A DNA stretch of 58,106 nt from a virus: the IMG/VR virus record IMGVR_UViG_3300035180_000411, positions 1 through 58,106 of that record. One strand, 5' to 3'. Positions 584 to 48,954 of the stretch are shown in pieces. Below the pieces are notes generated by a model that worked only from the letters and a program-made list of their open reading frames with translations, ran no database searches and had not been told where the DNA came from. The translations under genes were made by a program, and so were the position numbers. The stretch's first letter is position 1. The number at the start of each line of letters is the position of its first letter.

Positions 584-1073
584 CCAACCACGCATTCCTG
601 CATCGACATGGAAGACCGTCGGCGCAACGGCGGCTGTCATTGCGTCGCTTGCTGCTTATGAGGGTTACCGTGGCGCGGCCTACGACGACGGCGTGGGCGT
701 GCAGACAATAGGGTTTGGCACGACCCAAACCGTATCTGGGCCTGTCAAACGCGGGGATAAAACCGATCCTGTGCGTGCAGTGATAACCCTCCAGCGCGAT
801 GCAGACGCTCACGCTAAAGGTCTGGCTGGGTGCATTGGCGATGTGCCTCTTAGAAAGGGTGAGTGGGATGCTTATGTTTCGTGGGCTTATAACGTCGGTG
901 TTGGCAATGCTTGTCATTCCTCTCTAGTGAAGAAGCTCAAGCAGGCCCCACCAGATTATGCTGGTGCGTGCAAAGAATTGCTGAAATGGAATCGTGCTGG
1001 TGGTATGGAATCGTTTGGGCTTACCAAGCGCCGCCAGGCAGAATATAAAATGTGTGTAGGAGAACAGCCTTGA
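576..1073 (+). CDS. SAR endolysin, GH24 lysozyme
   Basis: A 165-residue muramidase of the T4/P22 lysozyme type. The catalytic pattern E-x8-D-x5-T is present at E29, D38 and T44 (YEGYRGAAYDDGVGVQTIGF). Residues about 12-27 form a weakly hydrophobic Ala/Val-rich segment typical of a signal-anchor-release domain, so the enzyme is probably exported by Sec, tethered and inactive, and freed when the holin collapses the membrane potential. Conserved GEWDAYVSWAYNVG and GLTKRRQAE segments support GH24. It sits between holin and spanin genes with overlaps at both ends. Confidence 0.93.
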   Translation: MPDQPRIPASTWKTVGATAAVIASLAAYEGYRGAAYDDGVGVQTIGFGTTQTVSGPVKRGDKTDPVRAVITLQRDADAHAKGLAGCIGDVPLRKGEWDAYVSWAYNVGVGNACHSSLVKKLKQAPPDYAGACKELLKWNRAGGMESFGLTKRRQAEYKMCVGEQP

Positions 1074-8915: not shown

Positions 8916-10816
8916 TGGCAAATGATGCATCCGCAATTATATCCAATGCTATAGCCACTGCGCAGGACATGCGCGAAGGGGCTGCTACGGCCATAGATGA
9001 TGCGCTTGGACGGTTGTCGCAGTACCGGGAGCCGCGTACCAGCGACATTCCATACATGCAGATATGGTCGAACTTCAACCTTGGTGATGCTCCAGAGTTC
9101 CACGGCCAACATTACACCCCGCCGAACAAAGATTTTGGTCCGCGTCCTGAGTTAGCTTCGAATCCTGAACGCGACTACGGGGAAAAGCCAGGTCTAACCG
9201 CGCAACAACCGTTGTTCATCGAACCGCTCCGCCCGAGCGAAATGAGGCCATTTGGCTATACACCCCCTTCACTGAACGGCCTTACTATTCCTCCTGCGCC
9301 TGCTGCGCTGTCGAACCTGAACTTTGCGCCGCCTAAACTGGCGGATATCGCTGTACCCCCTGCACCGTCAGTCCATTTGCCTGAATTTGCCGCAGTTGCT
9401 CCAGATACAGACATAGAAGCGCCCACCGACTTCGAAGCAAGATTCGCGGCCAACTATGCGAGTATGTCTGTCTCCATGCGTAACAGTTTGGATGCGGCAG
9501 TAGATGCGCACCTAAGTAAGATTAACCCCGAGTACCACAATCAGATGGCCACGCTGGAAGCCAAACTCTCCAAATATATGGCGGGGGGCACCGCGCTACC
9601 GATAGAGGTAGAGCAGGCTATCTACAACAGGGCACGTGACAAGACTAACGCTGAGTACCTTAAATCGCGTGATCAGATCATGAAGGAGGGCGCCAGTAGG
9701 GGCTTTACCATCCCTGGCGGCGCACAGTACAGCGCACTTGCTCAGTCTCGGCAAGCAGCAGCAGACAATAACGCCAGAGCTGCGATGGATATTGCCATCA
9801 AGCAAGCTGAGATGGAGCAGCAGAATATTCAGTTTGCCGTGACTCAATCTGCTAATTTGCGGGGCGTAGTGCTGCAAGCGGCGTCGTCGTTCCTGTCAAG
9901 TCTGGTGCAGATCAACGGGCAAGCCGTTGAATACGCCCGAGACGTACTCTCTGCCGCGATTGCGCTGTATGACACGATGGTGAAGATCGCTACTGCGCGT
10001 ATTGAGATTTACAAGGCTGAGGCGCAGGTATATGAAATTCGTCTGCGAGCGGTGCTGGCGGTGTACGATGTATATCAGGCAGAGATCAAAGCGATTGAAG
10101 CGCAAGTGAACGTCGATCAAGCGCGCGTAGCTGCTTTCACGGCGCAGATGAACGGCTATGGTGCCTTAGCCAATGCGTACAAAGCCGTAATAGATGGGGT
10201 AGTGGCGCAAGCTCAGGTAGAGAAACTGAAAGTCGATATTTTCGGCGCGGAAGTTAGCTCGTATTCCGCTGAAGTCGGGGCTAAACAAGCAGAGTGGCAA
10301 GGGTTTATTGCGCAGGTACAGGGGGAGTCTGCCAAACAACAAGCCTATGGTGAGGAAGTCAGGGCCTACGCAGCCGAGGTAGAGGGGTACAAGACAAGTG
10401 TTTCTGCCTGGGCGGAAGAGGTCAGAGCCGTAGCGGCCAAAAATGAAGGGGCGCTTAAAGTATATGAAGCGGCGGTTAAAGCATATATAGCCCAGGTGCA
10501 GGGGGCAAGTGCCTCGGCCAAGGCTGAGGTTGAATCGTTTGCGACTACTTTACAGGGATATGTGGCAAAGGCGAATGCAGAAGAAGCGCGGGCGAAGGCG
10601 GATATACAGGCGGCAGCAGCTAACCAGTCAGCGCTTCTTGCTGTGCGGGATGCGAACAACAAGACCTTGCTAGCTACGTCTTCCGCGTATAATAGCTATA
10701 TGACAAACGCTGCAAGCGTAGCGGTTAACGCTTCGAACGTGTATGCAAGCATGGCAAATTCTGCAATGGCGGGCATTAGCTCGCTCGGTGCAGTAGTTGA
10801 AACGATTACTGGGTAA
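8915..10816 (+). CDS. long alpha-helical virion protein (coiled coil)
   Basis: A 633-residue protein whose ATG shares a base with the previous stop (TAATG). The first 170 residues are Pro-rich, with repeated IPPAPAAL / VPPAPSVH elements. Residues about 170-600 are almost entirely helical and Ala/Glu/Lys/Gln-rich, with long heptad-like runs (EIKAIEAQVNVDQARVAAF; AYAAEVEGYKTSVSAWAEEV). The design fits a tail needle, tail shaft or ejected internal protein. Located directly upstream of the portal gene. Confidence 0.6.
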   Translation: MANDASAIISNAIATAQDMREGAATAIDDALGRLSQYREPRTSDIPYMQIWSNFNLGDAPEFHGQHYTPPNKDFGPRPELASNPERDYGEKPGLTAQQPLFIEPLRPSEMRPFGYTPPSLNGLTIPPAPAALSNLNFAPPKLADIAVPPAPSVHLPEFAAVAPDTDIEAPTDFEARFAANYASMSVSMRNSLDAAVDAHLSKINPEYHNQMATLEAKLSKYMAGGTALPIEVEQAIYNRARDKTNAEYLKSRDQIMKEGASRGFTIPGGAQYSALAQSRQAAADNNARAAMDIAIKQAEMEQQNIQFAVTQSANLRGVVLQAASSFLSSLVQINGQAVEYARDVLSAAIALYDTMVKIATARIEIYKAEAQVYEIRLRAVLAVYDVYQAEIKAIEAQVNVDQARVAAFTAQMNGYGALANAYKAVIDGVVAQAQVEKLKVDIFGAEVSSYSAEVGAKQAEWQGFIAQVQGESAKQQAYGEEVRAYAAEVEGYKTSVSAWAEEVRAVAAKNEGALKVYEAAVKAYIAQVQGASASAKAEVESFATTLQGYVAKANAEEARAKADIQAAAANQSALLAVRDANNKTLLATSSAYNSYMTNAASVAVNASNVYASMANSAMAGISSLGAVVETITG

Positions 10817-18839: not shown

Positions 18840-21800
18840 ATGGGTGACTGGACGGATGCGTACCTTAAGCCTGCGGCCACTAATGACGCGCCTGCCGGAG
18901 ACTGGACGGATGCGTATCTTAAGCCTGCGGCTACCAAGGTAGGTGCGTTATCCGACATCGCGCAGGCAGTTCCCGCTGAAGGTCGGCGCCTTGGAAGGTC
19001 AGTTCTAAATTTAGGCGCATCGCTGGGCGGCGCGCTCGGTCTGGTGAGCGACGATACCGCTGCGGGTATCGTTCACGACAACATGAAGGCTAATGAGGCG
19101 GACAACTACCAGGCGAGAACCACAGCAGGCAAGGTCGCTCAGGGGCTAACTCACATGGCCCCGGCTATTGCGCTGGGTATTGCCAACCCCATAGCGGGTC
19201 TAGGTGCTTTTGCCGCACAGGGTGCGTGGGATGCTGGAACCGGCGCCATCGACCAAGGTGACAGCTTGCGTAATGCCCAGATCAAGGCTGTCGGGCAAGG
19301 TGCGCTAAACTCAGCACTGGGTGAAGTCGTAGGTGGTAGCGGAAACGCGGTTCTGTCCAAGCTCCCATATGTCGGTAATGTATTTGCTCCGGCTGCAGCG
19401 GATACGGCTGGCGCGATAGGTAAGCGGATGGTTCAGGGCGCCGGGACTATGGCGGCTTTCAAACCCGCTGGTACAGCCATTGACTACGCGGCAGACATGG
19501 CTACTGGCGAGAATAACGGCCAGCAACGTGACTGGTTTCCTAATGTGGCTGACCTGGCTACAGGTGCCTTGATGGGCGTGCCGCACGCTGCGATGGAGTA
19601 CCGTGCCCGTAATAACGTACCTACCGGCGTGACACCGCTGGCGGACGGCTCATCGATCATGACGCATGAAAACGGTTCGCTGTTTTCATCCCCTACAGCG
19701 TCTGACGCATTTATCAAGGTTAACGGGCTGAGTGCCGCGGAGTCTGTCCCCGTCACCGAAAGGATGTTCGACCCCGAAGCCAAAACCGATAAGATAGTCG
19801 GCTACGGTGTACGGGTTGAAGCTACTCCAGCCATCCCCACGCCGGTGCCACCGGAAACCATCGTTCCACCAGAGTTGCAGCCGAAGGACTTGGTTGCTGG
19901 TACTGATACACAGAATCCCGAGCCGACGCCATCTGAGCCTATCGTTCCGCCGGAGGCGCGACCCGTGAGTGCTAACGTACCCGGCACCCCTGGGTTCGAC
20001 ATGGCTCGTTACATGGCCGACATAATACATGGTGAACGTACCCAAGCCCCCGCGCAGCCTGTAGTATCAGATATTCCGCCGGAGCTACAGCCGAAAGACT
20101 TGGTTGCGCCAAAGGTGTCCACAGCAGAGAAGACAGAACCCGCCACGGTTCAACCGGAATCACCCGCACCAGGCGAGGTCATCGCATCACCCGCAGCACA
20201 GCCGGTTGCTGCTGCGGAATCACCTGCGCCCGCTATCTCCCCGCTGTTCGAAGATATGGGCATCAAACCGAACAAGAAGAACGCTGACATCGTAGCCCGC
20301 GCCGATGCGCTACGGGCGAGTAACCCGGAGGTAGACCTTACCGACGTAGGCGTAGCATTGGCGAAGTACAAGTATGGTGCGGCGGAAAAAGCGTTGCGCG
20401 AACTGGAGGAACAAACCGCAGAGGAAGCACCTGTAGAAGCACCCGCAGAAGCACCCGCAGAAGCACCCGCAGAAGCACCCGCAGAAGCACCTGTAGAAGC
20501 ACCGGCAGAAGCACCTTCACCTAAAGACATGGTAGAACAACCTACAGTGAATCCGCCATCTGCGATCGACCAGGCTAGTCAAACCGGCGACCTTGACGCA
20601 TATACAGGAAGACAGGTGAAGGTAGGCAAAGAGCTGATCACTATTCCAAAACTTCCTCCAGTGCAGCAGAAAGTATTTAACTTACTCGACCGGGCTAGTC
20701 AAACCGGCGACCTTGACGCATATATGGGAAGCTACGAGAAGGTAGGCAAAGAACTGAACTTGGCTCGTGGTTCTGTCCTAAAGGCCATGCAAGGAATGCG
20801 GAAGGCTATCAGCAAGGCGTCGGGTATGGATGTCCCGCAATATCTGGATACGCTTAATAAAGCCAATCGTAGCGTTGAGAAGACCGATGAGGAGCTCTTC
20901 GGACAAAGCCCGGATAAGCAGCGCTCGGTCGTAGATACATCAGAACTGTATGGTGGCTCTGACGCTGGTCATGACGATAAATCCATAGGTATCATTAACA
21001 GCGCAGGTGGTTCGCGGGGCAAGACGAGTGGCTCCTTGGATATGAAAGCGGCGCAACAAGTACGCCGTGCCGTAGAAGCCTACCCGCCGGAAGCACGTGA
21101 AGCGCTGCAGAATAGACTGTCTGATCTGGGCGAAGACTATAAAGATTTTAGCAATGAGGAACGCCTGCATTTGCTGGGGGCTTCGAGTGACCACGACATT
21201 ACGCATGATGACATAGATGAAGCACGCCACCTTAGTCGGGGCACGCGCGGGGAAGACACAGACGATGGTACGTACCAATCCGCGACCGAAGCCGCTGCGG
21301 AAGACCAGGCAACGTTGAAACGAGAAGCCGCTGCGAAGGCTGAACACGCGGAAATGCTACGTGAAGTAGCTGATGACTATAATGAGAGCCTGCAGGAAGG
21401 GGATGTTCCATTCGAGCAACTACCACGGCGCCTGCAAGACCTTTACATTGATGCATTTGAGGATCACCGTAACGGCGACCTCACTGCGCAGGAGTTCATG
21501 CGCAAGTTTTCGGAGATAGCAGATGAAGCCAAATACCAAGCAACTGTTGAAAGAGGAAGCCTGGGCCAAGTTCAAGCAGGAGTTCCAGACAGCGGTACGG
21601 AAAATGGGCAAAAACAGCCAACCGGCGTCGCCGAACAGCCTGCCGCCGGGCGAGGAAGTGAAACAAAATACGCCGGCGAGGCGGTAGCCCCCACCGGCCA
21701 GCGTGCCGCTGAGATGGAGAGTAACCTGCGCAGCGCGTTCTCCAGCCCGTATTTCTTCGACCGCGCAGTGGGTATCGCGCAGGATGTGTCGAGCTTGCCG

Positions 21801-24800
21801 GAAGGTGCGCGTCGGGACGTAATGAAAGCCCAGTCGTCCGGCGGCAAAGTGAAAGGATTCTATGACCCCAAGACCAACAAAGTTTGGCTGATCGCCGATA
21901 ATATACCGAAGGGCGCTGAACTGTCCACGTTACTGCACGAAGTCGGCGTGCATATGGGTATGAAGAATTTACTCGGCGATAGAAACTACGCCCGTCTGGT
22001 GGAGCAGGTTAAGCAGTTTGCAGAGCGAGACGACGGGGGCTTGGAATCAGAACTGGCAAAAACTGCCTTGCGCCGGGTTCTGGCTGCGGAAAAATACCTG
22101 GGCAAAGAATATGGGGACAAAAGTTTCGACAGCGAACTGCTGGCGTACTTTACGGAAGAAGCCGTGCGTAGAGGGATCAACCCTACGGCGCTGGATAATT
22201 CTAGCGAGATAGGCAAGTTCTTTGCGACAGTTATGCGCGCAATCAATACAGCGCTACTCAAGCTAGGGATTAAACCAGAAAGCCTTACCGCTAAAAACGT
22301 AGTTGACCTGGCCTACGGCGCAGCGCACAAGGAGTTGAACGCTCCCCGTGAATCTGCTGAACCCATCGAACGGCGCTTCTCCATCGCTGCCGATAAGGAA
22401 GACGATGAAATAATCAAGGCCAACATCGCCAAGGCGCCAGTGGGGCTGCGCAAGAATCTCAACGTCATCATGGATAACGTCAAGTACACGGGTAAATCGT
22501 CGCTACTTGCATCGGGGTTCCTGCATGATGTCGTCCGGGTCGCCAAGAAGTCGCTGCCATCATCGGTAGAGTATTTCAAGAATGTGGAAGAGGGGGCTGC
22601 AACCAAGACTGCCGGAGACAAGGTGATCAACCAGGTTGCGCAAATGTATAACAGGTTGAAAATCCGCGACCGCGAAGTCGTCAATAATTTCCTTAAGGAA
22701 GGGACAATCTCTCAGAAATGGGGCTACCAACCGAGCTGGAAAACGGAGAATGTAGTAGACCGTGCGGCAAAGCGCGAATTTGATGCACTTCCACCCGAAG
22801 CCCAAGCCGTTGTCCAAGTGGTATTTCAACACGGGCACGATACCCTAACGGCGCTACGTGAAAGGTTTAATCAGGAAATACACTCGCAGGCATCGGGCGC
22901 TATAGAAGAAATAGAGCGTGCCGGCGGCGAAGATACAGACGCGCGTATACAGGAGGTAATTAAAGCTCGGGATGCAGCGCTTGAAAAAGTCGCTAAAGAT
23001 TTTCCAGAGCTAGCTGGCCCCTATGCCCCCCTTATGCGCTTCGGCGATTTTATGGTGGTAGCTACCTCAAAAGAATACCGCGAAGCCAGGGACGGCTCCC
23101 CTGAAAAAGAAGCCATGAAATCTGACCCGAATCATCGCCAAGTAATAGGGGCAGACAGCATCGGCGAAGCAAACCAGCTCGCAAAGGAAGTGCAGGAGGC
23201 GTATCCGCACATGCGCGCCGAAGCCTTCGAAAAGGAATACTACGCCAAGGCGCTACAAGAAGCTCCGTTCGCCACCATTGAGCGTATGAAGGAAATGGCC
23301 AAGGGGAATCTGGGGGATGACGCCAGCCCTGAGACGGTTAAGGCTATAGACGACTCGCTTACTCAGCTATATATCTCGTCACTGGCGGACACCAGTGCCA
23401 TGCACTCACGCACAAGGCGTACAAATACTGCTGGCGCAAGTGACGATATGATGCGGGCGTTTATCAGCAGGGGCCACTCCAATGCTCACCTGCTGGCTCT
23501 GCTGGATCATAACGCTGAAATTCAGCGGGCCATCACCAAGATGCGCAATGAGGCACACTCTGGAGTGGACTCTGAGGGAAACCAACTGCCCGGCACTAAG
23601 AGCGAGCGCAGACAGTACCTGAACGAGTTGCTAAAGCGGCGCGCGCTATCGTCGATATATTCAGCTAGTCCGTGGACCCACAAGTTTATGCAGCTTACCG
23701 CAACGTGGAAGGTACTAACTTCCCCAGCGTTTTACTTGCAGACTTCCACTGAACCGTTCATGGTAATGCGTCCGGTACTCGCTGGTAAGTTTGGCAATGC
23801 TAAATCGTTCACGACGATGCTTAAAGCATTCAAGGATGCTGCTGCGTTTGTTGCATCGCACCGCCCGGATGAGGCGGTAGATGTTTCCCGCTGGACCAAG
23901 TCCTCGGGCCGCGGCGCACGTAATGGGGATATGCTAAAGGCGCTGGACCGTAGGGGGCGCATCGACCTTGGCCAATTGTCTGATTTTGGCAATACCGACA
24001 TTACACACGGAAACCCTGTAAGCGCTGCGTTCAACCTTGTGATGTCCAAAATCAATCGCGTCGCTACCTCGATGGAAGCGTCTAACCGTATTACATCGGC
24101 GAACGCAGCATATACATTGGCTTATGAGCATGCATTAGACAACCTCAAAATGGCGCCAAAGGCTGCGCACGACTACGCAGTCGATTACGCGGACCAGACC
24201 GTACTCGACACGCATGGTAGCTACGACGCCTTTAACGCCCCGCGAATCATGATGCAGGCGAACTCCCCCGGACTCCCTGTAGCGCTGCTTGCGCAATTCC
24301 GCAAGTTTCAAGTGATGGAAATGTCGCTGTTCTCGCGGTTGGCGTATAACTCATTTAAGCACGCAGACCCGGCTGAGAAACTTATCGCTCGGAAGTCCTT
24401 GGCATATATGCTCGGCCAGCAAGCGGTGATAACGGGCGCTCTTGGGCTACCAGGCTATGGGGTAATTTCGACGTTGCTAAACTATATTTTCGGGGACGAA
24501 AAAACTCCAGTAGACGCCGACCTCGCTCTGCGCCGGGCAATAGGCGACAAGGACTTGGCTCACCTGATTATGAATGGAGTGCCTGGACTGCTCGGTATGC
24601 CTGTCACTACCAAGTTGGGCATGGGCGGAATGTTCAGTGTAGTACCTTTCGATAGTGTCGATCTCAAGAATAAAGCAGGATTGGGGGAGACTGTGCTGGC
24701 GATGAGCGGCCCCTTTTTAGGGGGGATGTTGCCGGATGGCGTGAACGCGGTAAACAAACTGCGTCAGGGAGAGTATTACAAAGCTACCGAGATGCTGATG

Positions 24801-25253
24801 CCCTCGTTAGTACGTAACGGCATGAAGTCCTATCGTCAGGCGACGGAAGGCGTAACCAATTCTAAGGGTGATATCCTTTTACGGCCAGACGAACTTTCGG
24901 AAGCGGATACTATGCTGCAGGCGCTTGGATTCAGTTCCACGCACCTTAACGACCGAACATTTACCCAGAACGTCGTCATGGAGTACGAGGAATATTACAA
25001 AGACCGCATGGACCGCGTTACACATAAGTACGCCAAGGCATTCAGAGAGGGGGACACTGAGGGTATGCGGGACGCACGGGATCAGTTTATGGAGTACCAG
25101 AAGGCCCAACGTGAAGCCGGGTTACTGCCTACACCAATTAGCTCAATGTACAGAGCACCTTCGGAACAGATCAAGCGTCAAGCAAAGACCATTGGCGGTG
25201 TACAGTGGGACAAGCACAATCTCAGAGTAGTGAAGGAACTGTCAGGGGAATAG
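18840..25253 (+). CDS. giant virion protein with zinc-metallopeptidase motif
   Basis: A 2137-residue protein, the largest here. It opens with a duplicated GDWTDAYLKPAAT unit, then an Ala/Gly-rich, membrane-active-looking region (about 90-220), a Pro-rich disordered part with AEAP repeats (about 529-560), duplicated SQTGDLDAY segments with a helix-turn-helix-like stretch (EKVGKELNLARGSVLKAMQG, about 640-660), and a HExxH site at H1033-E1034-H1037 (LLHEVGVHMG) with a possible third ligand E1099. The C-terminal half is long and helical. Such multidomain proteins are packaged and ejected with the DNA; the peptidase may act on the envelope or on host proteins. Roles are inferred. Confidence 0.72.
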   Translation: MGDWTDAYLKPAATNDAPAGDWTDAYLKPAATKVGALSDIAQAVPAEGRRLGRSVLNLGASLGGALGLVSDDTAAGIVHDNMKANEADNYQARTTAGKVAQGLTHMAPAIALGIANPIAGLGAFAAQGAWDAGTGAIDQGDSLRNAQIKAVGQGALNSALGEVVGGSGNAVLSKLPYVGNVFAPAAADTAGAIGKRMVQGAGTMAAFKPAGTAIDYAADMATGENNGQQRDWFPNVADLATGALMGVPHAAMEYRARNNVPTGVTPLADGSSIMTHENGSLFSSPTASDAFIKVNGLSAAESVPVTERMFDPEAKTDKIVGYGVRVEATPAIPTPVPPETIVPPELQPKDLVAGTDTQNPEPTPSEPIVPPEARPVSANVPGTPGFDMARYMADIIHGERTQAPAQPVVSDIPPELQPKDLVAPKVSTAEKTEPATVQPESPAPGEVIASPAAQPVAAAESPAPAISPLFEDMGIKPNKKNADIVARADALRASNPEVDLTDVGVALAKYKYGAAEKALRELEEQTAEEAPVEAPAEAPAEAPAEAPAEAPVEAPAEAPSPKDMVEQPTVNPPSAIDQASQTGDLDAYTGRQVKVGKELITIPKLPPVQQKVFNLLDRASQTGDLDAYMGSYEKVGKELNLARGSVLKAMQGMRKAISKASGMDVPQYLDTLNKANRSVEKTDEELFGQSPDKQRSVVDTSELYGGSDAGHDDKSIGIINSAGGSRGKTSGSLDMKAAQQVRRAVEAYPPEAREALQNRLSDLGEDYKDFSNEERLHLLGASSDHDITHDDIDEARHLSRGTRGEDTDDGTYQSATEAAAEDQATLKREAAAKAEHAEMLREVADDYNESLQEGDVPFEQLPRRLQDLYIDAFEDHRNGDLTAQEFMRKFSEIADEAKYQATVERGSLGQVQAGVPDSGTENGQKQPTGVAEQPAAGRGSETKYAGEAVAPTGQRAAEMESNLRSAFSSPYFFDRAVGIAQDVSSLPEGARRDVMKAQSSGGKVKGFYDPKTNKVWLIADNIPKGAELSTLLHEVGVHMGMKNLLGDRNYARLVEQVKQFAERDDGGLESELAKTALRRVLAAEKYLGKEYGDKSFDSELLAYFTEEAVRRGINPTALDNSSEIGKFFATVMRAINTALLKLGIKPESLTAKNVVDLAYGAAHKELNAPRESAEPIERRFSIAADKEDDEIIKANIAKAPVGLRKNLNVIMDNVKYTGKSSLLASGFLHDVVRVAKKSLPSSVEYFKNVEEGAATKTAGDKVINQVAQMYNRLKIRDREVVNNFLKEGTISQKWGYQPSWKTENVVDRAAKREFDALPPEAQAVVQVVFQHGHDTLTALRERFNQEIHSQASGAIEEIERAGGEDTDARIQEVIKARDAALEKVAKDFPELAGPYAPLMRFGDFMVVATSKEYREARDGSPEKEAMKSDPNHRQVIGADSIGEANQLAKEVQEAYPHMRAEAFEKEYYAKALQEAPFATIERMKEMAKGNLGDDASPETVKAIDDSLTQLYISSLADTSAMHSRTRRTNTAGASDDMMRAFISRGHSNAHLLALLDHNAEIQRAITKMRNEAHSGVDSEGNQLPGTKSERRQYLNELLKRRALSSIYSASPWTHKFMQLTATWKVLTSPAFYLQTSTEPFMVMRPVLAGKFGNAKSFTTMLKAFKDAAAFVASHRPDEAVDVSRWTKSSGRGARNGDMLKALDRRGRIDLGQLSDFGNTDITHGNPVSAAFNLVMSKINRVATSMEASNRITSANAAYTLAYEHALDNLKMAPKAAHDYAVDYADQTVLDTHGSYDAFNAPRIMMQANSPGLPVALLAQFRKFQVMEMSLFSRLAYNSFKHADPAEKLIARKSLAYMLGQQAVITGALGLPGYGVISTLLNYIFGDEKTPVDADLALRRAIGDKDLAHLIMNGVPGLLGMPVTTKLGMGGMFSVVPFDSVDLKNKAGLGETVLAMSGPFLGGMLPDGVNAVNKLRQGEYYKATEMLMPSLVRNGMKSYRQATEGVTNSKGDILLRPDELSEADTMLQALGFSSTHLNDRTFTQNVVMEYEEYYKDRMDRVTHKYAKAFREGDTEGMRDARDQFMEYQKAQREAGLLPTPISSMYRAPSEQIKRQAKTIGGVQWDKHNLRVVKELSGE
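20424..20516. repeat. 12-bp tandem repeats encoding AEAP
   Basis: About seven and a half units of gaagcaccNgYa inside the giant virion gene, encoding (A/V)EAP. In-frame, low-complexity linker likely to vary in copy number. Confidence 0.9.
20573..20724. repeat. 32-bp direct repeats (20573-20604 and 20693-20724)
   Basis: Two identical 32-base copies encode ASQTGDLDAY and lie 120 bases apart; similarity continues into the downstream VGKEL segment. This is an internal duplication of about 40 codons within the giant virion gene. Confidence 0.9.
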
Positions 25254-25282: not shown

Positions 25283-28207
25283 CTAAACGGCCTGGTCGGC
25301 CCCTTTTTCGTCGGACTCCCGCGCAGCTTCTACAGCGTTTACATCGACTAGATGAACACGCTCCGCAAAGGCTGCCCAGTCAAGCTCTATAACCTGCTGC
25401 TGCGGGATTGCGTAGTCAACCAGACCTTTGCCGAGGCAGTATTTGAACCTGCCACGATACCATCCGCGCGCCGTGGCGACTTCGATCATTTCGTCTACCG
25501 GGGTGTTGTTTTCTTTACACCATTCGCGGATTGCATGTATGGACACCAGCACCCGGTTGTCGTTGATAATCACTCTCCCCGTGACGGCTCCGCGTGGTGG
25601 GTAGCCGTGGATAGTCGCAGCCTTACCATCTTTACTACGGCGGTCGCCTTCGATAGCTGTCATAAGGAATCCGCTGTGGAGCTCTGCTATCATATCCCCG
25701 AACAAGCCAGCCATATCTACATGAGAGTCGCTTACCCTGTTGTGCATGTCGCGTAATGAACGTTTAATCCATGCCTTGAGCGCGCCTCCATCGAACTTCT
25801 GCAGGCCAAGCGCGGTAGTAATCTCGTGAGCTACCCAGATGCAGGCCGCGATCTTTAACCAGAACCTGGCTTCTTGGTTAAGGTTTAGAACCGTAGTGAA
25901 CTCTTCATCGACAGCATCCAGGCGGCTGGCGATCTCGTCTCGGTGCGTAACCACGTAGCGTATGAATGCGTCACCGGCTACTCCCTGCATACTGAGCAGT
26001 TCGTTGATTACGCGCTGCCCCTCCGACTTACCCAGCATTTCGGAACTCTTGGCGGTGAACTTATACTCCCAGATACGGTATATGCGGGGGCCAGGGTTGA
26101 CGTAGTTTGCGATAATATGGCTCACCATTGACTCGTTGGAACTGAGCAACGCGATGTTCGTCCATCCAGCGTCTTTGTTATCGCGCAGCGATCCGTCTTG
26201 CTTGAGCCGGTCTTTCGGCAATCCTTGGCTATAGCGGTAGGCGAAGTCAGAGGCTTTCTTTCCGCCCCAGGGCGTGATTTCGTCTATCAGCATGGGCAGG
26301 TGACGCCGCATCTCGGCTTTACCATACATGGCATTTTCCGTGGTGCTCTCGGCGCCAGTCAGGCGCGTAGCTTCGCCCCATATGCCCGTAGCCAGTTGCT
26401 GCGCCGTAGTTTTTCCCGCGCCGCTCTGGTTGGAGTGCGCTGCGATGATTCCACCCATGAATCCAACATGGTGTAGCGGGAGCAACACCGATGCGAAACC
26501 TCCTAGCCAGGTGAACTGATGGGGCTCGTGATTGGGGCGATTATACAGTTTGTCTATAAGCTCGATGTACCTACCGAGGTTGCCCTTGACTTCGAATTGA
26601 GGAGCGTAGGTTTGTAGATACTCTGTCAGCGCGACGAAGCGTGTTCCGCCTTCGGGTAGGTATTGAGTGTTCCCAACGACGAAGGAGCCGTCCGGTTTCC
26701 ATCCAAAGTACCCGTGCATTTCTGTTTCTGCGGTGTGCATACGGGTTCTTTCCGCCCACAGTTTCATATAGTTCTCCAAATGCTTTGCCCTGCCGTAAAT
26801 TGGGGCAATCATACAGTAGCTACTAAGTTCCTTGAGCATCGCGGCGCCACCAGCAGCGATAATTCCAGCTTCGACGTGTGCGGTGTCCCACGTATTGCTT
26901 CGTAGCCAAGTTTTGATGGTGTACATCCACTTAAGGGTGGTGGTGTCTTTGTAGTACGCGGTGATGTAAGGAATCGTGGTGGTGAACACTTCCCATACTT
27001 CAGAGCCGTCTTTGTCTTCCGTCCGGGCTTCCATCCCGCTACCTTTAACAAACCGGAACCGTTCTTCTACATCTGGAGGGAGCGCCGGAATGTCCTCGGT
27101 TTCTCCCGTCGTAGCATCCACGATTTCTCTTGCCGCCGTGGGGGCAAGTCTGCCCAAGGCAATAGGTGAATTAACGCTTTGGGAGCACCCGGCGCAGATA
27201 CCAGGTCCGTCTTGCTTGAACTTCTCGCAGAGCGTAGGGCCGGCATTCCACTTTTCTATTACATCCTGGCATATCCCAGGCTGATAGTCTTCATGCCCTG
27301 AACTCCACTCATGTATAAGAGCGTCGCCCTCAACACAGTGTTTAAGGACACCTATACAGTCGCGCCATACTTGGTAGTCTTGGCCTACGCCCTTGAAGTC
27401 CCGAAAGTTACCGATTTGCGCGCAACGTTCCGCGATCTTGACTGCGGACGATTCAGGGTACTCCATGCCGCCCAGAATTGCTGCGTTCATTCCTGCCGCT
27501 ATGCTCTTGGTTTTTCCAGAGGCTTTCGGCTGTAAAACCTTGATTCCATACTCTTCTTTAATGTCCCGCAGTTTCGCAACCCATGCAGACACATTGACCA
27601 GTGCTGTTACCGGCTCGCCTATCAGCTTGACCTGCTTGATGCCCAACCCTTTATGGGTCTTATCATTCACCGTCCCTATAGGGCGCAGCACGCTGGCTAC
27701 GTCTGCCGTTCTGGTTGTATCGTCCACACCCAGCTTGAAGTGCGCTGCGACAGACTTGAACAGCTCCGCCATTTTGACCCAGGAATCTTTTGGGATGTCG
27801 CGGTTGAATACCCAGTATGCGTGAATCCCATTGCCGGAGTCTACCAACACGTTCGGACGCTGTATCCCTGTCGTATCGCAGAACCGCTTTAGGTCGAGCA
27901 GGGCATCTTTCTTCGTGGCGTACTGATTTTTTACATCCATATCAAGCCATTGCGACCTGACTAATAGCGCGTTTTCATGCGTCCGCCAGCACGTTTTACC
28001 GTTGCCATCTACGTATGAGGCTTGCGCGTAGCTTGCGCACGCATGGTATACGTTCTTTCCCTGTGAGCTAAGTAGGAGCGCCTTGTGGGCGGCCTCCTCG
28101 GTGGAGGCGCACGGGTAATGCTTGGGTGCTCCAGCTTCTTTGATCCATACCACATAATATACTCCCGCTGAGGGGAGTATAAGTTTAAGAAAATCTCCGG
28201 TGTTCAT
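25283..28207 (-). CDS. primase-polymerase/helicase fusion
   Basis: A 974-residue replication protein. The N-terminal 190 residues form an archaeo-eukaryotic primase-type domain: DxD metal site at D89/D91 (QWLDMDVK), SGNGIHAYW with H129, and RPIGT at 175-179. A cysteine pair cluster follows (C327, C338, C341). The C-terminal half is a DUF927-like superfamily 3-type helicase with Walker A SGAGKTT (K599) and Walker B PMLIDE (D642-E643). It should prime and unwind DNA at the fork. Start ATG 28207 follows AGAGGGG. It is the last gene of the leftward block. Confidence 0.87.
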   Translation of the reverse strand: MNTGDFLKLILPSAGVYYVVWIKEAGAPKHYPCASTEEAAHKALLLSSQGKNVYHACASYAQASYVDGNGKTCWRTHENALLVRSQWLDMDVKNQYATKKDALLDLKRFCDTTGIQRPNVLVDSGNGIHAYWVFNRDIPKDSWVKMAELFKSVAAHFKLGVDDTTRTADVASVLRPIGTVNDKTHKGLGIKQVKLIGEPVTALVNVSAWVAKLRDIKEEYGIKVLQPKASGKTKSIAAGMNAAILGGMEYPESSAVKIAERCAQIGNFRDFKGVGQDYQVWRDCIGVLKHCVEGDALIHEWSSGHEDYQPGICQDVIEKWNAGPTLCEKFKQDGPGICAGCSQSVNSPIALGRLAPTAAREIVDATTGETEDIPALPPDVEERFRFVKGSGMEARTEDKDGSEVWEVFTTTIPYITAYYKDTTTLKWMYTIKTWLRSNTWDTAHVEAGIIAAGGAAMLKELSSYCMIAPIYGRAKHLENYMKLWAERTRMHTAETEMHGYFGWKPDGSFVVGNTQYLPEGGTRFVALTEYLQTYAPQFEVKGNLGRYIELIDKLYNRPNHEPHQFTWLGGFASVLLPLHHVGFMGGIIAAHSNQSGAGKTTAQQLATGIWGEATRLTGAESTTENAMYGKAEMRRHLPMLIDEITPWGGKKASDFAYRYSQGLPKDRLKQDGSLRDNKDAGWTNIALLSSNESMVSHIIANYVNPGPRIYRIWEYKFTAKSSEMLGKSEGQRVINELLSMQGVAGDAFIRYVVTHRDEIASRLDAVDEEFTTVLNLNQEARFWLKIAACIWVAHEITTALGLQKFDGGALKAWIKRSLRDMHNRVSDSHVDMAGLFGDMIAELHSGFLMTAIEGDRRSKDGKAATIHGYPPRGAVTGRVIINDNRVLVSIHAIREWCKENNTPVDEMIEVATARGWYRGRFKYCLGKGLVDYAIPQQQVIELDWAAFAERVHLVDVNAVEAARESDEKGADQAV

Positions 28208-28584: not shown

Positions 28585-29541
28585 TTAAGCGTCGTCGAAA
28601 ATTGCGCCGAGCTGGCTGTCCAAGTCGTCGTCATCGCTTACAACAGGTTTGGCCTTCGGCTTGGTTTTCGGTGTGGGCTCGTCATCGTCCTCCACTACTG
28701 CGGGTTTGGCCTTCGCCTTGGCTACTGCTTTGGCAGTTGTAGCGGGCGCGGTGTCCAATCCCTCGTCGTCATCGCTCACCCGTTTCGCTGCGGGCTTTGT
28801 TTCGAACGCCTCATCGTCATCGCTCAGGTGTGGGAGCGCCATAGTACCGATAATTTGCAAAACAATTTCAGTTTTAGCAAGGTCTTGCACTTCATTCTGC
28901 ATCGTCTGCGGGAGTACGCCTACCGGGATGAATACCAGCTTCGGAGTGGCCTCGTCCTTGTCGAACCTCAATTTGGTCAGCACCTGGTCGAAAGACAGGC
29001 CACGGTTACTCAGGGTTTTACCAAACTCCGCAAGCGACTTGAGTGAAGCAGGCGGCACGCGCAGTAGCATTGGCTCGTTAAGCTGGCTCGGTGACGAAAT
29101 CGCAAGCCGCCGGCTATCCTGGCAGGCTTTGCCTTTGCCGTTCCTACCGCTGCCCCACACGTTCTTGGGGCATACTGCGCAGGTTTTGGAAACCGGGTTC
29201 TCAACTTGCGCATCCGGCATGATACCATCGTTGGACATGCAGTCCGGCTTACCTGTACTACCTTCTTCGAACTCTCCTTTGTAGTAGACCTTCGACAGAT
29301 GCGGGTTCGCCGCCAGAATTACCACTTCGATAGCCGCTGCGGGGGTGTCGTCATCGTCGGGGCGCATAATTACTTTGCGTTCCTTATCCTTGACCAGCGT
29401 AAAGACTTTACCCTTGATGGACATAACGGGGAACGAGCCACTACCTACTCCGCCCAGCAGAGCGTTGTTACGATCTTGCGCGGCCTTAACTGCGGCAACG
29501 GTAGGTTTATATGACTCGAAAGAAATAATATTTGTGCTCAT
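28585..29541 (-). CDS. ssDNA-binding-like protein with Cys4 zinc site and acidic tail
   Basis: A 318-residue protein with an OB-fold-like N-terminal half (SIKGKVFTLVKDKERKVIM; AAIEVVILAANPHLSKVYY), four cysteines spaced as a zinc site (C101, C121, C124, C140, with CPKNVWGSGRNGKG between), a Lys/Ala/Asp-rich linker, and a very acidic C-terminus (DDDDLDSQLGAIFDDA) like the partner-binding tails of phage SSBs such as gp2.5 and gp32. It should coat single strands and recruit polymerase or helicase. Sequence GGAG lies before ATG 29541. Family assignment by features, not by a named domain. Confidence 0.72.
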   Translation of the reverse strand: MSTNIISFESYKPTVAAVKAAQDRNNALLGGVGSGSFPVMSIKGKVFTLVKDKERKVIMRPDDDDTPAAAIEVVILAANPHLSKVYYKGEFEEGSTGKPDCMSNDGIMPDAQVENPVSKTCAVCPKNVWGSGRNGKGKACQDSRRLAISSPSQLNEPMLLRVPPASLKSLAEFGKTLSNRGLSFDQVLTKLRFDKDEATPKLVFIPVGVLPQTMQNEVQDLAKTEIVLQIIGTMALPHLSDDDEAFETKPAAKRVSDDDEGLDTAPATTAKAVAKAKAKPAVVEDDDEPTPKTKPKAKPVVSDDDDLDSQLGAIFDDA

Positions 29542-32371: not shown

Positions 32372-34036
32372 TCACCTATAAGTTCCATTTTGACCCTTCC
32401 AAAATGTGCAATTAGCTTTACCCACCGGGCACCAGCCACAAAGCCCCGACGGCTTGACCTCCCATTTATCGTTCTCGTATGCAATCTCCAGCCGTCTAAC
32501 GCGCGGTAAGAAACCCTGCCAGATGTTACTTACATCTGCCCGCGTAAACTTTTCCTTCGTGATTTTGTTATGCGCCAGCCAGACAAAAGCAGTGCTCACT
32601 TTATCAATTTTCGGCTCGGTGTGAAACACGAATGCAGCGAATAATTTGAGTTGGTCTGAGTCCGCCTTGGGGCGACCCGTATTGTGCGTTGGAATCATAC
32701 GCTCAGTACACAAGAATGTGTGGTCTTTCGAGTCTACTGAGATGCACTGAGTTGGCACCGACGGGATTTCCGCTACTGACACCACGCGCCTGCGCCATGA
32801 CTCTCCTCGGCCCCACTGCGTCGAAACTCTGTCGGCTTTGCGCGGGAGCAGGAAGGGGTTTATTCCGTTTGGTCTAAATGAAATGGGGTACGCAGTAACT
32901 TCCAGACCGAACCCGTGAGCGAGAACTGAGCTTTGCAGCGGACGCTGCCCCAGCGAGCAGAGTAGCTCCATGACAGAATCAGAAAGACCTTTATCCGTCG
33001 TTGTAAATATAGCCTGTTTCCGTACTGAATTTACATTCCCGTCGCCGTCCATAAGCCCTCTCAGCAGGTCAAGTCGCTGCGCATACCCCGCCCTAAGATA
33101 CACTGCGGGTATGTGTTTGTTTTTAAGGAGCCCTGTTTCTCGGAGCAGGGTACGCAAACCCAAAACAGTGTGCACCCTACACTTACCACCTTGCGCCTTG
33201 GCGCTGTAGTCGTGGCTTATATTGAAGCCGCGTCGTTTAATCTCCTCCCACACAAACTCATCGGGTTTAGTAATTTCGGCGCTTGAGTGTTTTCCGTCAG
33301 CCAACCACACACCTAGCACGTAGGGGTCTATAGGTAAAACAGCGTCCGAAAGGCTGAGTGGAGCGGCAACAAGTAATTGTGAGCTATTAACAGGCCCTGT
33401 TCCAATTACGTACCTATTGCCTTGGGTGTCTAGCTCCTTTACGTTAACCACACTTCCGTCGTGGAGCTTCCATAAGTGGTTTTCGTCACAGACCACCGAT
33501 GAGGTGTCGTCAAATGTAATTTTGTAACACTTTATGTTCTTTACTTGTGACTTACCTACTACAGTACACATCTCACCCGATTCTGAAAATAGTGTGTCGC
33601 CAACCCTTACATCTCCCATAGTAGTAAAGCCTTCAGGTGTCGGGAGCTTAGTATCCAGCGCAAGACCTTTCCAGTCTATGAGTACCGCGCGGTCTCCCAA
33701 TAATACACCAGCGTCTACAATACCGCGAACCCATGCATCCGGCGACCGCCACTCAGTCGGCCTGAAATCTGCAGTTAGTGCGTACTGGCGCTCAGTAAAT
33801 ACCTCTCCGCCGTATGACTGGATGCGGTCGCACAGTGGCTGCCACTTCTGCATGGATTCCGGGACTGGCGTTCCGTCCTTGACGCGGTTCTCTAGGGCGG
33901 TATGCACCTCCGTCCCCCACTTGGTAGCCTCGGTGCCGGGTTCCGCGACTTGCTTGGACACCCTTGTGAGGTAGTATCTACGGGGGCAGTTTTCAAAAGC
34001 GGTGAGCGACGAGTAAGACCACGGCGGGATGTTCAA
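32372..34036 (-). CDS. Cas4/RecB-type nuclease with in-frame intein, TTG start
   Basis: A 554-codon gene; the mature nuclease after removal of residues 124-452 would be 225 residues. Extein features: SLTAFENCPRRYYL with C17, H45 (GTEVHTALE), D108 (GIVDAG), D121-W-K123, TGRPKADSDQLKLFA with Q462, and C533, C536, C543 near the C-terminus. C17 plus the three late cysteines match the 4Fe-4S arrangement of Cas4/AddB nucleases. The enzyme should resect or process DNA ends in replication/recombination. TTG 34036 follows AAAGGAGG and overlaps the upstream stop (TTGA). Confidence 0.87.
   Translation of the reverse strand: MNIPPWSYSSLTAFENCPRRYYLTRVSKQVAEPGTEATKWGTEVHTALENRVKDGTPVPESMQKWQPLCDRIQSYGGEVFTERQYALTADFRPTEWRSPDAWVRGIVDAGVLLGDRAVLIDWKGLALDTKLPTPEGFTTMGDVRVGDTLFSESGEMCTVVGKSQVKNIKCYKITFDDTSSVVCDENHLWKLHDGSVVNVKELDTQGNRYVIGTGPVNSSQLLVAAPLSLSDAVLPIDPYVLGVWLADGKHSSAEITKPDEFVWEEIKRRGFNISHDYSAKAQGGKCRVHTVLGLRTLLRETGLLKNKHIPAVYLRAGYAQRLDLLRGLMDGDGNVNSVRKQAIFTTTDKGLSDSVMELLCSLGQRPLQSSVLAHGFGLEVTAYPISFRPNGINPFLLPRKADRVSTQWGRGESWRRRVVSVAEIPSVPTQCISVDSKDHTFLCTERMIPTHNTGRPKADSDQLKLFAAFVFHTEPKIDKVSTAFVWLAHNKITKEKFTRADVSNIWQGFLPRVRRLEIAYENDKWEVKPSGLCGWCPVGKANCTFWKGQNGTYR
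32681..33667 (-). mobile_element. class 3-type intein with LAGLIDADG homing endonuclease
   Basis: Residues 124-452 of the nuclease gene (329 residues). It begins GLALDTKLPTPEGF, so the first residue is Gly, not Cys or Ser. Block B has H187-x-W189 (DENHLWKL), block F has C431 (TQCISVDS), and block G is T450-H451-N452 followed by extein Thr453. The W-C-T triplet and non-nucleophilic first residue define class 3 inteins, which use the block F cysteine to start splicing. The endonuclease has two LAGLIDADG motifs: LGVWLADG (D247) and LLRGLMDGDG (D330/D332). Removal rejoins DWK and TGRPKAD, the catalytic motif. Confidence 0.9.
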
Positions 34037-44265: not shown

Positions 44266-44400
44266 TCATGCGATGCAAACTATCTTCAGTCTGCCGTTAG
44301 ACAGACCTAGAAAGTCTACCGCAAGAATGAGGGCCTCGACAGAATGCGAGGCGAAAACGGTTAACTGTTCGGTTTTGTTAGACACAATATAGGTGTGCAT
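44266..44400 (-). CDS. 44-residue early protein
   Basis: From ATG 44400, with GAGGTAGC upstream: MHTYIVSNKTEQLTVFASHS followed by VEALILAVDFLGLSNGR and a short end. Ordered beta-alpha pattern. It is the first gene downstream of the repeat-rich non-coding region. Unknown function. Confidence 0.55.
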   Translation of the reverse strand: MHTYIVSNKTEQLTVFASHSVEALILAVDFLGLSNGRLKIVCIA

Positions 44401-44525
44401 GATGCTACCTCGGGGGTGGTTTGTAGGCGCGGGGTGAGCTACCTTGGCAGGTTTTGTTAGCAATTATCCAAATGTTAGCCCCTAATTAGAAAATGGGGCA
44501 TTTTTTAAGTGCTTGATTTTTCAAT

Positions 44526-44549
44526 AATTATCCAATTATCCAATTATCC
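44526..44549. repeat. three tandem AATTATCC repeats
   Basis: Perfect 8-bp tandem copies at 44526, 44534 and 44542. A single copy occurs at 44462. Confidence 0.95.
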
Positions 44550-44736
44550 GCGAGAACAAACGCAAATTTGAAGTAACTTTTTCTACGGTGTGTTAACTCG
44601 TTAGCTCGTAGATTTTTACCGCTACACGGGGTTTTATATATATACGTATTTCTAATTGTATAAATAGGGGCTAACAAGTCCACTCCGGCTAGTGTTTATA
44701 GGGCTTCCAGCCTGTTAGCTCGTTTTCTAAAACCCC

Positions 44737-44752
44737 GGATAATTGGATAATT
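44737..44752. repeat. two tandem GGATAATT repeats, inverted relative to 44526
   Basis: Perfect 8-bp tandem copies that are the reverse complement of the AATTATCC unit. Together with 44526-44549 they bracket the AT-rich segment. Confidence 0.95.
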
Positions 44753-44816
44753 ACCTGTAGGTGTTAGCTCGCTACGCGCGCAAGTCCTTGATTTTGCTTG
44801 TGAGTAGCTAACAGAG

Positions 44817-44845
44817 TGAGCTAACATCCGATGGATGTTAGCTCA
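44817..44845. repeat. 29-bp perfect palindrome built from two iterons
   Basis: Arms TGAGCTAACATCC and GGATGTTAGCTCA (13 bases each) flank GAT. Each arm contains one TGTTAGCTC element, here facing each other. No T-tract follows on either strand, so it looks like a paired binding site rather than a terminator. Confidence 0.92.
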
Positions 44846-44875
44846 TGAAATGCGAAAGGCCGACGTAGCGCCGCG

Positions 44876-45055
44876 CTATCCTTGCCTGGCGCGGTAGTAT
44901 GCGTCCTGGTCGGCGAGGTGCTGAACCTCCCCTGGCACTGGATAGCCGGTGGGATACCAAAGATTGCATCTTTGGCCATCTATGCTGCTTTCATACGTGG
45001 CATTGATCTTGCCTTCTGTTTCGTAGCGTGCCGCTATGAGAATCCATGTTTCCAT
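44876..45055 (-). CDS. 59-residue early protein
   Basis: From ATG 45055 (GGAG six bases upstream), METWILIAARYETEGKINAT, then a YPTGYPVPGEVQHLADQDAY segment. It lies between a terminator (45075-45100) and the repeat region. No family recognised. Early position suggests host takeover. Confidence 0.6.
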   Translation of the reverse strand: METWILIAARYETEGKINATYESSIDGQRCNLWYPTGYPVPGEVQHLADQDAYYRARQG

Positions 45056-45074
45056 TTCCTTCTCCAAAAAACAA

Positions 45075-45100
45075 AGGGGCTATGGTTATCCATAGCCCCT
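45075..45100 (-). terminator. rho-independent terminator, leftward
   Basis: AGGGGCTATGG and CCATAGCCCCT form an 11-bp perfect stem with a 4-base loop. On the minus strand it is followed by TTTGTTTTTT. It separates the genes at 45158-45721 and 44876-45055. Confidence 0.92.
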
Positions 45101-45755: not shown

Positions 45756-45779
45756 TCACAGGCGAATATTCGCCTGTGA
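45756..45779 (-). terminator. rho-independent terminator / 24-bp palindrome, leftward
   Basis: TCACAGGCGAAT and ATTCGCCTGTGA are perfectly inverted. As RNA this forms a GC-rich hairpin followed on the minus strand by TTCTTTGTTT. It separates the genes at 45787-46140 and 45158-45721. Confidence 0.85.
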
Positions 45780-46172: not shown

Positions 46173-46174
46173 AA

Positions 46175-46202
46175 AGAGGCTACGAAAAAATCCGTAGCCT
46201 CT
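46175..46202 (-). terminator. rho-independent terminator, leftward
   Basis: AGAGGCTACG and CGTAGCCTCT form a 10-bp stem with an 8-base loop, followed on the minus strand by TTTTTGTTTAG, which merges into the duplicated leader. Confidence 0.88.
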
Positions 46203-46215
46203 CAAAATTTCAGTA

Positions 46216-47059: not shown

Positions 47060-47557
47060 ATGACTACCCAATTACCAGCCATAGCCGATATACCTGCCCT
47101 GTTCATTTTTGACGCAGCCGTAGGGGTATACACGCTCGACGAACTGTGCGCGAAGTACGAATACCCGCCTGAATACGCCGCGTACCTGGAGAAAGAACCT
47201 GCATTCCAGAAGGCGGTGCGCGAGCAGGAAGCGGAACTGGACAAAACAGGGGTATCGTTCAAAATACGCAGCGGCCTGGTAGCTGAAGAGGCCATGATGA
47301 TTATCCGGGACAGGATAAAACGCGGGGATACTCCGACGCCGGTCGTGCTGGATGCGTTCAAGACGATGGCAAAGTTCGCGGGGCGTGAACCAGCCCCTGC
47401 AGGACAGCAGGCAGCCCCCGGTAGCGGGTTCAGTATCACGATCAATATCCCCCAGATGGGCGCCACGCCCGCGTCAACCATGACATTGGATTCGGTTTCT
47501 ACCCGCGTGGCGGACACCGCCGAGGTAGAAGTTGACCCTGAGTACGAATACTACTGA
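47060..47557 (+). CDS. terminase small subunit
   Basis: A 165-residue protein directly before the large subunit, overlapping it by one base (TGATG). The N-terminal 60 residues hold a helix-turn-helix-like region (VYTLDELCAKYEYPPEYAAY), followed by an oligomerisation helix (FKIRSGLVAEEAMMIIRDRI; PVVLDAFKTMAKFAGREP) and a flexible acidic tail. It should recognise viral DNA and present it to the motor. No ribosome site is evident before ATG 47060. Confidence 0.82.
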   Translation: MTTQLPAIADIPALFIFDAAVGVYTLDELCAKYEYPPEYAAYLEKEPAFQKAVREQEAELDKTGVSFKIRSGLVAEEAMMIIRDRIKRGDTPTPVVLDAFKTMAKFAGREPAPAGQQAAPGSGFSITINIPQMGATPASTMTLDSVSTRVADTAEVEVDPEYEYY

Positions 47558-48954
47558 TGAGCGGACTGGAATATAACCCGACGCCATCGGTAGTTCCTTA
47601 TTTCCTGAGCGACAAGTTCGTCAATCTCATCGTGGGCCCTGTCGGTAGCTCCAAGACGACGGCCTCTTTGATGAAACTGGTATACGAAGCACAACGCATA
47701 GCTCCGTGCCGTGATGGGATACGCAGGTCGAGAGCGGCCATTATCCGCAACACCTCGCAGATGCTGGACGATAGTACGATCCCAGACTTCATGAAGTTGC
47801 TCGGTGAAGCTGGTGAGTATATGAAAACCGGCAAGCGTATCGTACTCAAGTTTAACGATGTGGAGCTAGAGGTTTTGTTCCGGGGGCTTGACGACCCGGC
47901 GGCAGCGAGACGGCTCCTGAGTACGCAGTTGTCATTCGGTGTCATCGACGAGTTCAGGGAGATTCACCCTGATATTTTCAATGCACTGACGGGTCGCTTG
48001 GGTAGATACCCTGACAAGACGATGAACGGCGTCGGATGCTGCGACGACGCGGGGAAGCAGATACACAAGGTGTGGGCCGCGTCGAACCCGCCGGATATGG
48101 ATTCGTGGTGGGAGAAATATCTCAGCAATCCTCCGGAGAACGCAGCAGTATTTTTCCAGCCCAGCGGGTTGTCGGACGAAGCAGACTGGAAAAAGTTTTT
48201 GCCCGATGGGTATTATGAAAACTTGATGCTTGGCAAGAGCGAGGATTGGATCGAGACCAACGTGCACGGGCGTTTCGGTAGGTCTCTGTCGGGTTTGCCC
48301 GTGTTTCGCTCGTTCGACCAAGACTACCACGTAGCCAAGGCACCCTTGAAGCCGATTATAAGCACGAACCACCCGTTGATTATCGGAGTAGACTTCGGGT
48401 TGACCCCGGCGTGTACCATCAATCAGCAAGATGCACGGGGACGGTTTCTCACGTATCGTTCGCTGGTGTCCGAGGGCATGGGTATTTTGAGGTTCTGCCG
48501 TGAAAAATTGAAACCCATGCTAAATAATGAGTTTCCCGGCCACCCTGTGATTGTAATCGGGGACCCTGCGGGAGTACAGCGCGCGCAGACCGACGAGCGC
48601 AGCGCGTTTGATATCCTCAAGAGCGAGGGATTCACAGCGATAGCGGCCAAGACGAACTCCGTTACTGCGCGAATCGCTGCGGTGGAGAATCTTCTGTCAC
48701 GCCAGATAGACGGAGAAGCTGCTTGGTTGATCGACCCAGGGGCCACTGAGCTCATACGTGCGTTGCGCGGGGGGTATAGGTACCGCGCCAAGACTAATGG
48801 GGAGATGGAGGATAAGCCGGATAAAAACCAGTACAGCCATATCGCTGACGCATGTCAGTACAGCGTATTGCACGTAGACTCCGTGTTCGGCGCAGCCTTG
48901 AAAGCGTCAGCTCGGCGCGAGGTAAAGCGAGCAGTCGCGTTTGGATGGACTTGA
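47557..48954 (+). CDS. terminase large subunit
   Basis: A 465-residue packaging motor. ATPase: Walker A GPVGSSKTT (K33) and Walker B SFGVIDEF (D131-E132). Nuclease: IIGVDFGLTPAC (D279), VIVIGDPAGV (D336) and a late acidic residue in HIADACQYSVLHV. It docks on the portal, hydrolyses ATP to translocate DNA and cuts the concatemer. Its distance from portal and capsid genes is unusual. Confidence 0.93.
   Translation: MSGLEYNPTPSVVPYFLSDKFVNLIVGPVGSSKTTASLMKLVYEAQRIAPCRDGIRRSRAAIIRNTSQMLDDSTIPDFMKLLGEAGEYMKTGKRIVLKFNDVELEVLFRGLDDPAAARRLLSTQLSFGVIDEFREIHPDIFNALTGRLGRYPDKTMNGVGCCDDAGKQIHKVWAASNPPDMDSWWEKYLSNPPENAAVFFQPSGLSDEADWKKFLPDGYYENLMLGKSEDWIETNVHGRFGRSLSGLPVFRSFDQDYHVAKAPLKPIISTNHPLIIGVDFGLTPACTINQQDARGRFLTYRSLVSEGMGILRFCREKLKPMLNNEFPGHPVIVIGDPAGVQRAQTDERSAFDILKSEGFTAIAAKTNSVTARIAAVENLLSRQIDGEAAWLIDPGATELIRALRGGYRYRAKTNGEMEDKPDKNQYSHIADACQYSVLHVDSVFGAALKASARREVKRAVAFGWT

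Follow-up and report, generated by a model that had tools for sequence, protein, structure and literature searches.

A compact noncoding repeat array in the genome of a tailed phage probably serves as the phage's replication origin, to which a PrimPol-DUF927 helicase encoded by the phage, and not a small HTH protein, would bind. The window, by which we mean the whole stretch of DNA analysed, is the 58,106-base IMG/VR virus record IMGVR_UViG_3300035180_000411, which is classed as linear. Leftward early genes extend from ~46.5 to 25.3 kb, rightward late genes start at ~46.6 kb, and the array lies within the early block, ~2 kb from the point where the two diverge. Judging from the flanking ORFs and from indels between relatives that fall inside it, a noncoding region at 44401-44875 (no strand assigned) contains the entire array. 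On the left it is bordered by a conserved 44-aa ORF (44266-44400, -) whose differences from relatives look synonymous, and on the right by a 63-aa ORF (44876-45067, -). The sequence-only reading, which had seen no gene in this space, was correct on this point. AT content in the array region is 0.64 compared with 0.47 for the genome, terminator-like stems number 10 against 3.9 in shuffles, and Rfam returned no match to it. Just upstream of the array on the early strand, three strong terminator-like stems lie between small early genes (45075-45100, 45756-45779 and 46174-46203). Elsewhere in the window, a RecB-like PD-(D/E)XK nuclease gene (32372-34036) is about twice as long as its relatives and has a LAGLIDADG match close to the threshold; it probably contains an intein or homing endonuclease insertion.

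The array is a cluster of ~300 bases comprising six AATTATCC iterons, set out in 8-bp tandems as two inverted sets, and eight exact TGTTAGC boxes. A single iteron occupies the left outer position (44462-44469, +), three tandem iterons with an 8-bp period make up the left inner set (44526-44549, +), and two tandem inverted iterons, GGATAATT, make up the right inner set (44737-44752, -). The mirrored arrangement of three units against two that had been described earlier is thus borne out, as is the AT-rich stretch between the inner sets (TTTTATATATATACGTATTTCTAATTGTATAAATA, 44633-44667), which is conserved in two of three close relatives and altered in the third (L006). The most AT-rich 40 bp of the window (44500-44539, 83% AT) is a candidate unwinding element and overlaps the left inner iterons. 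Boxes of the TGTTAGC type are found at 44455-44461 (box 1, +), 44473-44479 (box 2, +), 44670-44676 (box 5, -) and 44713-44719 (box 6, +), with boxes 3 and 4 reading TGTTAAC and CGTTAGC, 8 bp apart (44591-44605, +). Boxes 7 (+) and 8 (-) form the ends of an imperfect inverted-repeat unit (44762-44813) of a kind that is duplicated in the relatives L004 and L005, and boxes 9 and 10 form the perfect palindrome already noted at the end of the array, TGAGCTAACATCC-GAT-GGATGTTAGCTCA (44817-44845), which is exact, with 13-nt arms and a 3-nt loop. An earlier count of ten TGTTAGC-type copies holds only with degenerate ones included, because exact TGTTAGC occurs eight times; GTTAGC occurs nine times in the stretch and TGTTAAC once.

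This clustering far exceeds chance. The window has eight copies of AATTATCC where shuffles predict 1.4, none of 100 shuffles attained eight, and six of the eight fall within 44462-44752 (one single, three in tandem and two in inverted tandem). Local dinucleotide shuffles (n = 2000) reached maxima of one AATTATCC and two TGTTAGC, and in whole-genome shuffles (n = 20) every 8-mer stayed at or below three copies per 300 bp, compared with six in the array. The sole denser 8-mer cluster of the window, near 20424, sits inside a long gene (18840-25253). We conclude that the array is genuine and noncoding, with repeats at a density well beyond chance. Its inverted repeats and palindromes would also suit a partition site or another structural DNA element, but a profile search of the array's neighbours found no partition genes, and we regard this explanation as very improbable.

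The array is retained by three close relatives (L004, L005 and L006), whose array-adjoining 119-aa gene is 75-94% identical to that of the window. The sequence-only reading had itself named absence from relatives that share the neighbouring genes as the observation that would speak against it; the array is present in them. In L004 and L005 the right side of the array has additional TGTTAGCT...AGCTAACA units and the iterons are nearly unchanged. The TGTTAGC/GTTAGCA boxes (window 44455-44845) constitute a second type of repeat, which L004 and L005 have amplified as hairpin-like units; such boxes also occur at G041 8627-8980, G042 19700-20150 and L165 2300-2440, and some distant relatives have them close to the matching AT-rich spot.

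Exact scanning of viral contigs for AATTATCCAATTATCC returned 73 stretches. Exact AATTATCC tandems in the two-sided layout were present in ~50 viral contigs, and almost all of these encode a homologue of the large terminase (TerL). The usual plan consists of outer singles, an inner tandem, ~100-190 bp, an inverted copy or tandem, and outer copies again. Nearly all loci with at least four copies within 400 bp and sufficient flank carry a homologue of the window's TerL, and 16 of the 17 loci with only two copies are without one. The array therefore belongs to one phage lineage, the remainder being chance hits. Bacterial genomes gave no match for tandem plus inverted iterons 90-120 bp apart, while the exact triple tandem returned 19 scattered contigs; a DNA search of named phages with the array neighbourhood gave none, and a search using another phage's array gave chance matches only. 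A literature search of papers outside subscription found no earlier account of the array. The array's most AT-rich 40-bp stretch lies at or above the 99.7th genome percentile in 12 of 12 genomes, to which the iterons, themselves AT-rich, contribute. More distant, mostly GC-rich relatives have no clear array, nor do five more distant phages encoding DUF927 proteins. At the corresponding place, TM3 (MN988472) has an AT-rich, repeat-containing spot (19560-20010) without a clean tandem.

Comparing loci by their terminase, irrespective of motif, revealed that the motif changes and its place does not. This motif-blind search, anchored on TerL (window 47557-48954, +), yielded 80 loci, and in most closer relatives 8-mers cluster densely at ~2.3-4.4 kb upstream of TerL. 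Of 29 relatives with TerL identity of at least 60% and at least 3 kb of upstream DNA, 27 have clusters of related 8-mers at this place; the other two have just 3.4-3.6 kb upstream. Motif words across lineages are AATATTCC, AATTTTCC, AATTTGnn, AATATTCT, AATTATCT, AATTATTG and AATTATCC, with TATTATCC in additional complete genomes and CTAGACAn in a distant relative. Layout and 8-bp period are constant across motif classes, and the array's place beside the early/late gene boundary is fixed across relatives. Cultured Pseudomonas phage Rollin (OR577172) has eight of its nine TTGCATA sites at 260-679, and three of these in a 9-bp tandem adjoin the most AT-rich 40 bp of its genome. In the Rollin record, the proposed origin region (1-700) and a ~10-kb stretch at 51782-61282 are without annotated genes, and AAAGGTAG palindromes stand at the place matching the window's TGTTAGC boxes. 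Among the terminases themselves, a 762-aa TerL (L062 4747-7035) has its Walker A motif interrupted by what looks like an intein.

A motif that changes while place, layout and period are kept argues against chance, -10 promoter elements and host DnaA boxes. The DnaA box is TTATNCACA, and TTATCCAA resembles it, which could suggest that the phage employs host DnaA at TTATCCA-like sites. However, TTATNCACA is absent from 44401-44875, the 8-bp period is shorter than the 9-bp box, and at the same place the motif is replaced by AATATTCC, AATTTG, CTAGAC or TTGCATA. Motif replacement largely refutes the use of host DnaA, which we find barely credible.

Transcriptional control has somewhat more in its favour. 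A phage repressor or activator might act on repeats placed between the first early gene and the remaining early block; in the genomes mapped, the array does lie just downstream of that first gene, the iteron contains a -10-like GATAAT, and terminator-like stems stand upstream on the early strand. Yet promoter-like matches are as frequent as shuffles predict, the AATATTCC, AATTTG and CTAGAC classes have lost the -10-like hexamer, and no conserved regulator adjoins the array, where at least three unrelated first genes are found. Early transcription control is therefore improbable, and the proposal of a master switch in the sequence-only reading is likewise not supported. Array-adjoining genes of unrelated types occur with one motif, and one type occurs with several motifs. 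The adjoining gene was rejected as the iteron binder because gene types do not match motif classes.

Sequence comparison and structural modelling together indicate that the likely iteron binder is a PrimPol-DUF927 helicase of ~1000 aa and not a small HTH protein. The window's copy, our proposed initiator, is a 974-aa PrimPol (AEP)-DUF927 helicase (25283-28207, -) that matches Pfam DUF927 (E 1.2e-25) and is assigned by PHROG as DNA primase/helicase; its nearest sequence matches in the PDB are 8tch, a pathogenicity-island protein, and 5dgk, the SCCmec helicase Cch. In every complete array-bearing genome that we fetched there is a gene for a ~1000-aa protein that combines an AEP-like N-terminus with a DUF927 helicase domain. 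The homologue in TM3 (MN988472, 42239-45322) is named 'putative integrase' in its record, which looks like a misannotation. An AlphaFold model of residues 745-974 (pLDDT 88) displays a strand-helix-helix-strand-strand unit typical of a winged helix, and we place a predicted C-terminal winged-helix segment at residues 873-945 (25373-25591, -) from this model, a fold search and co-divergence with motif class. The best fold match of the C-terminal model is 8tch, the SaPIbov1 replication initiator (Foldseek E 4e-5; Z 9.8), at an rmsd of 8.8 over 178 residues, a value so large over two domains that the match reflects domain order as much as exact shape. Further fold matches are SCCmec Cch (5dgk) and then TcpK, a winged-helix protein bound to oriT DNA. 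The C-terminal domain of SaPI Rep recognises origin iterons, and Cch, which contains DUF927, is related to SaPIbov1 Rep (PMC7581432). The earlier statement that the phage encodes no obvious origin-binding protein is thus probably wrong, given that its primase-helicase appears to bear the C-terminal winged helix of that initiator class. A small HTH or winged-helix binder, also suggested earlier, finds no support, the HTH protein (28270) having no detectable same-place counterpart in most relatives.

Another conserved protein, of 318 aa (28585-29541, -), occurs throughout the group's complete genomes and is considered here solely as part of the replication context. Its invariant Cys residues, four in number, and its acidic C-tail suggest that it probably binds ssDNA; a fold search against solved structures gave no significant match. 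We rejected it as the iteron binder, since its divergence is not linked to the motif and its features suggest ssDNA binding.

Covariation across genomes points to the same part of the initiator. Among 18 genomes with known motif and initiator, and with the rest of the protein as control, divergence of the winged-helix segment followed motif distance more closely than that of any other part (partial r 0.51; 0 of 2000 permutations of labels, which ignore phylogeny), as did that of the initiator tail (partial r 0.25, p 0.016). Segment borders were drawn by the model, and this test came after coarser ones that took the C-terminus as a whole or diagnostic columns and gave no clear signal in either direction. 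Correlation with the motif was not significant in these 18 genomes for the primase, middle, helicase and linker domains or for the 318-aa neighbour. Sliding windows ranked the winged helix second of 91 over all genomes, where a helicase window (543-616) scores equally, and first of 91 in the closest clade, the one with the most motif change. Almost no other part of the initiator thus appears to co-diverge with the motif as strongly as the winged helix.

The main rival explanation is a pac- or cosB-like packaging site, in which the small terminase (TerS) would bind the repeats to begin headful packaging and protein and site would co-evolve. The TerS candidate, recognised by its position before TerL (47060-47557, +), diverges in step with motif class (partial r 0.41, p 0.002; 19 genomes); the large terminase, portal and two other late proteins show no motif link. 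In nearly all relatives the array is 2-4 kb upstream of the terminase genes, contig break points vary as expected of permuted genomes, and the R-sites of lambda cosB likewise lie in both orientations around a bend site. Nevertheless, early genes occupy the 2.2 kb between array and TerS, and extreme AT-richness and a two-sided layout are origin traits. Within the closest clade, moreover, the TerS correlation is r 0.23 (p 0.16), whereas the initiator winged helix ranks best. We therefore consider a packaging site unlikely. Because the permutations ignore phylogeny, the coarser tests gave no clear signal and TerS also correlates, the pairing of initiator with motif is supported, not proven.

With replication as the preferred role, we tentatively propose, at a little less than an even chance, that the 8-bp origin word has repeatedly switched in all its copies simultaneously, with place, spacing and period unchanged, and that it tracks the winged helix of a SaPI-type initiator. 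This lineage of tailed phages would then fall into specificity groups comparable to plasmid incompatibility groups.

Initiator binding, melting, ring loading and the direction of replication are inferred, the steps after binding from SaPI Rep. The PrimPol-DUF927 helicase would bind the 8-bp iterons through its C-terminal winged helix, placing two initiator sets on the oppositely oriented inner iterons. The AT-rich region between the iteron sets would melt, and two helicase rings would be loaded in opposite directions, facing each other across it. Synthesis would then begin with the initiator's primase domain, the phage family-A polymerase and the putative ssDNA-binding protein. The origin candidate of the sequence-only reading is supported: the array is kept in close relatives, its two-sided layout is that of SaPI/PICI origins, and a SaPI-Rep-like initiator accompanies it in all complete array-bearing genomes. 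The GC-skew check proposed alongside it was equivocal, with a minimum 2.7 kb from the array here and within 3 kb in just 6 of the 12 genomes with an array, so skew speaks neither for nor against an origin.

Several known systems share parts of this design. In the lambda origin, O iterons lie beside an AT-rich region, as in the window, but they are part of the O gene, whose product is not a helicase; the window array is intergenic. The P4 alpha initiator acts on repeated iterons (ori/crr) and, in its general domain plan, resembles the window in combining a fused primase-helicase initiator with iterons. P4 pairs its fused primase-helicase with a cognate ori (PMC7145576, PMC6092414). SCCmec Cch2, a self-loading helicase with a putative origin, uses its C-terminal domain to bind direct repeats (PMC7581432), as we propose for the window protein, but Cch2 is of the D5/Primase_Cterm type and the window protein, like Cch, of the DUF927 type. 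In PICI origins an AT-rich region is always flanked by two sets of iterons, and in the pri-rep-ori module of SaPI/PICI, as in the window, these are opposed sets of short iterons (PMC6092414). Both systems also have a primase and a DUF927-type helicase, which in SaPI is the initiator and reads dsDNA with its C-terminal domain (PMC6092414, PMC7581432); by similarity, the window protein would likewise be a DUF927-class Rep with a C-terminal winged helix. Unlike these satellites, the window is a tailed-phage genome of ~58 kb that carries terminase, portal and tail genes of its own; its primase and helicase are fused, its iteron sequences differ, and its array (44.5 kb) is ~16 kb from the rep gene (25.3-28.2 kb) rather than directly 3' of it. 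Although probably similar in working, it is not a SaPI/PICI member, because rep linkage and satellite context are lacking.

Rollin is cultured and has the same anatomy, which makes the idea directly testable. If it is true, a common origin system would link satellites and phages, and a broad phage lineage would have an origin that is unlinked from rep and switches its address word. Its members would also supply a series of natural initiator/iteron pairs from which the specificity of winged helices could be decoded.
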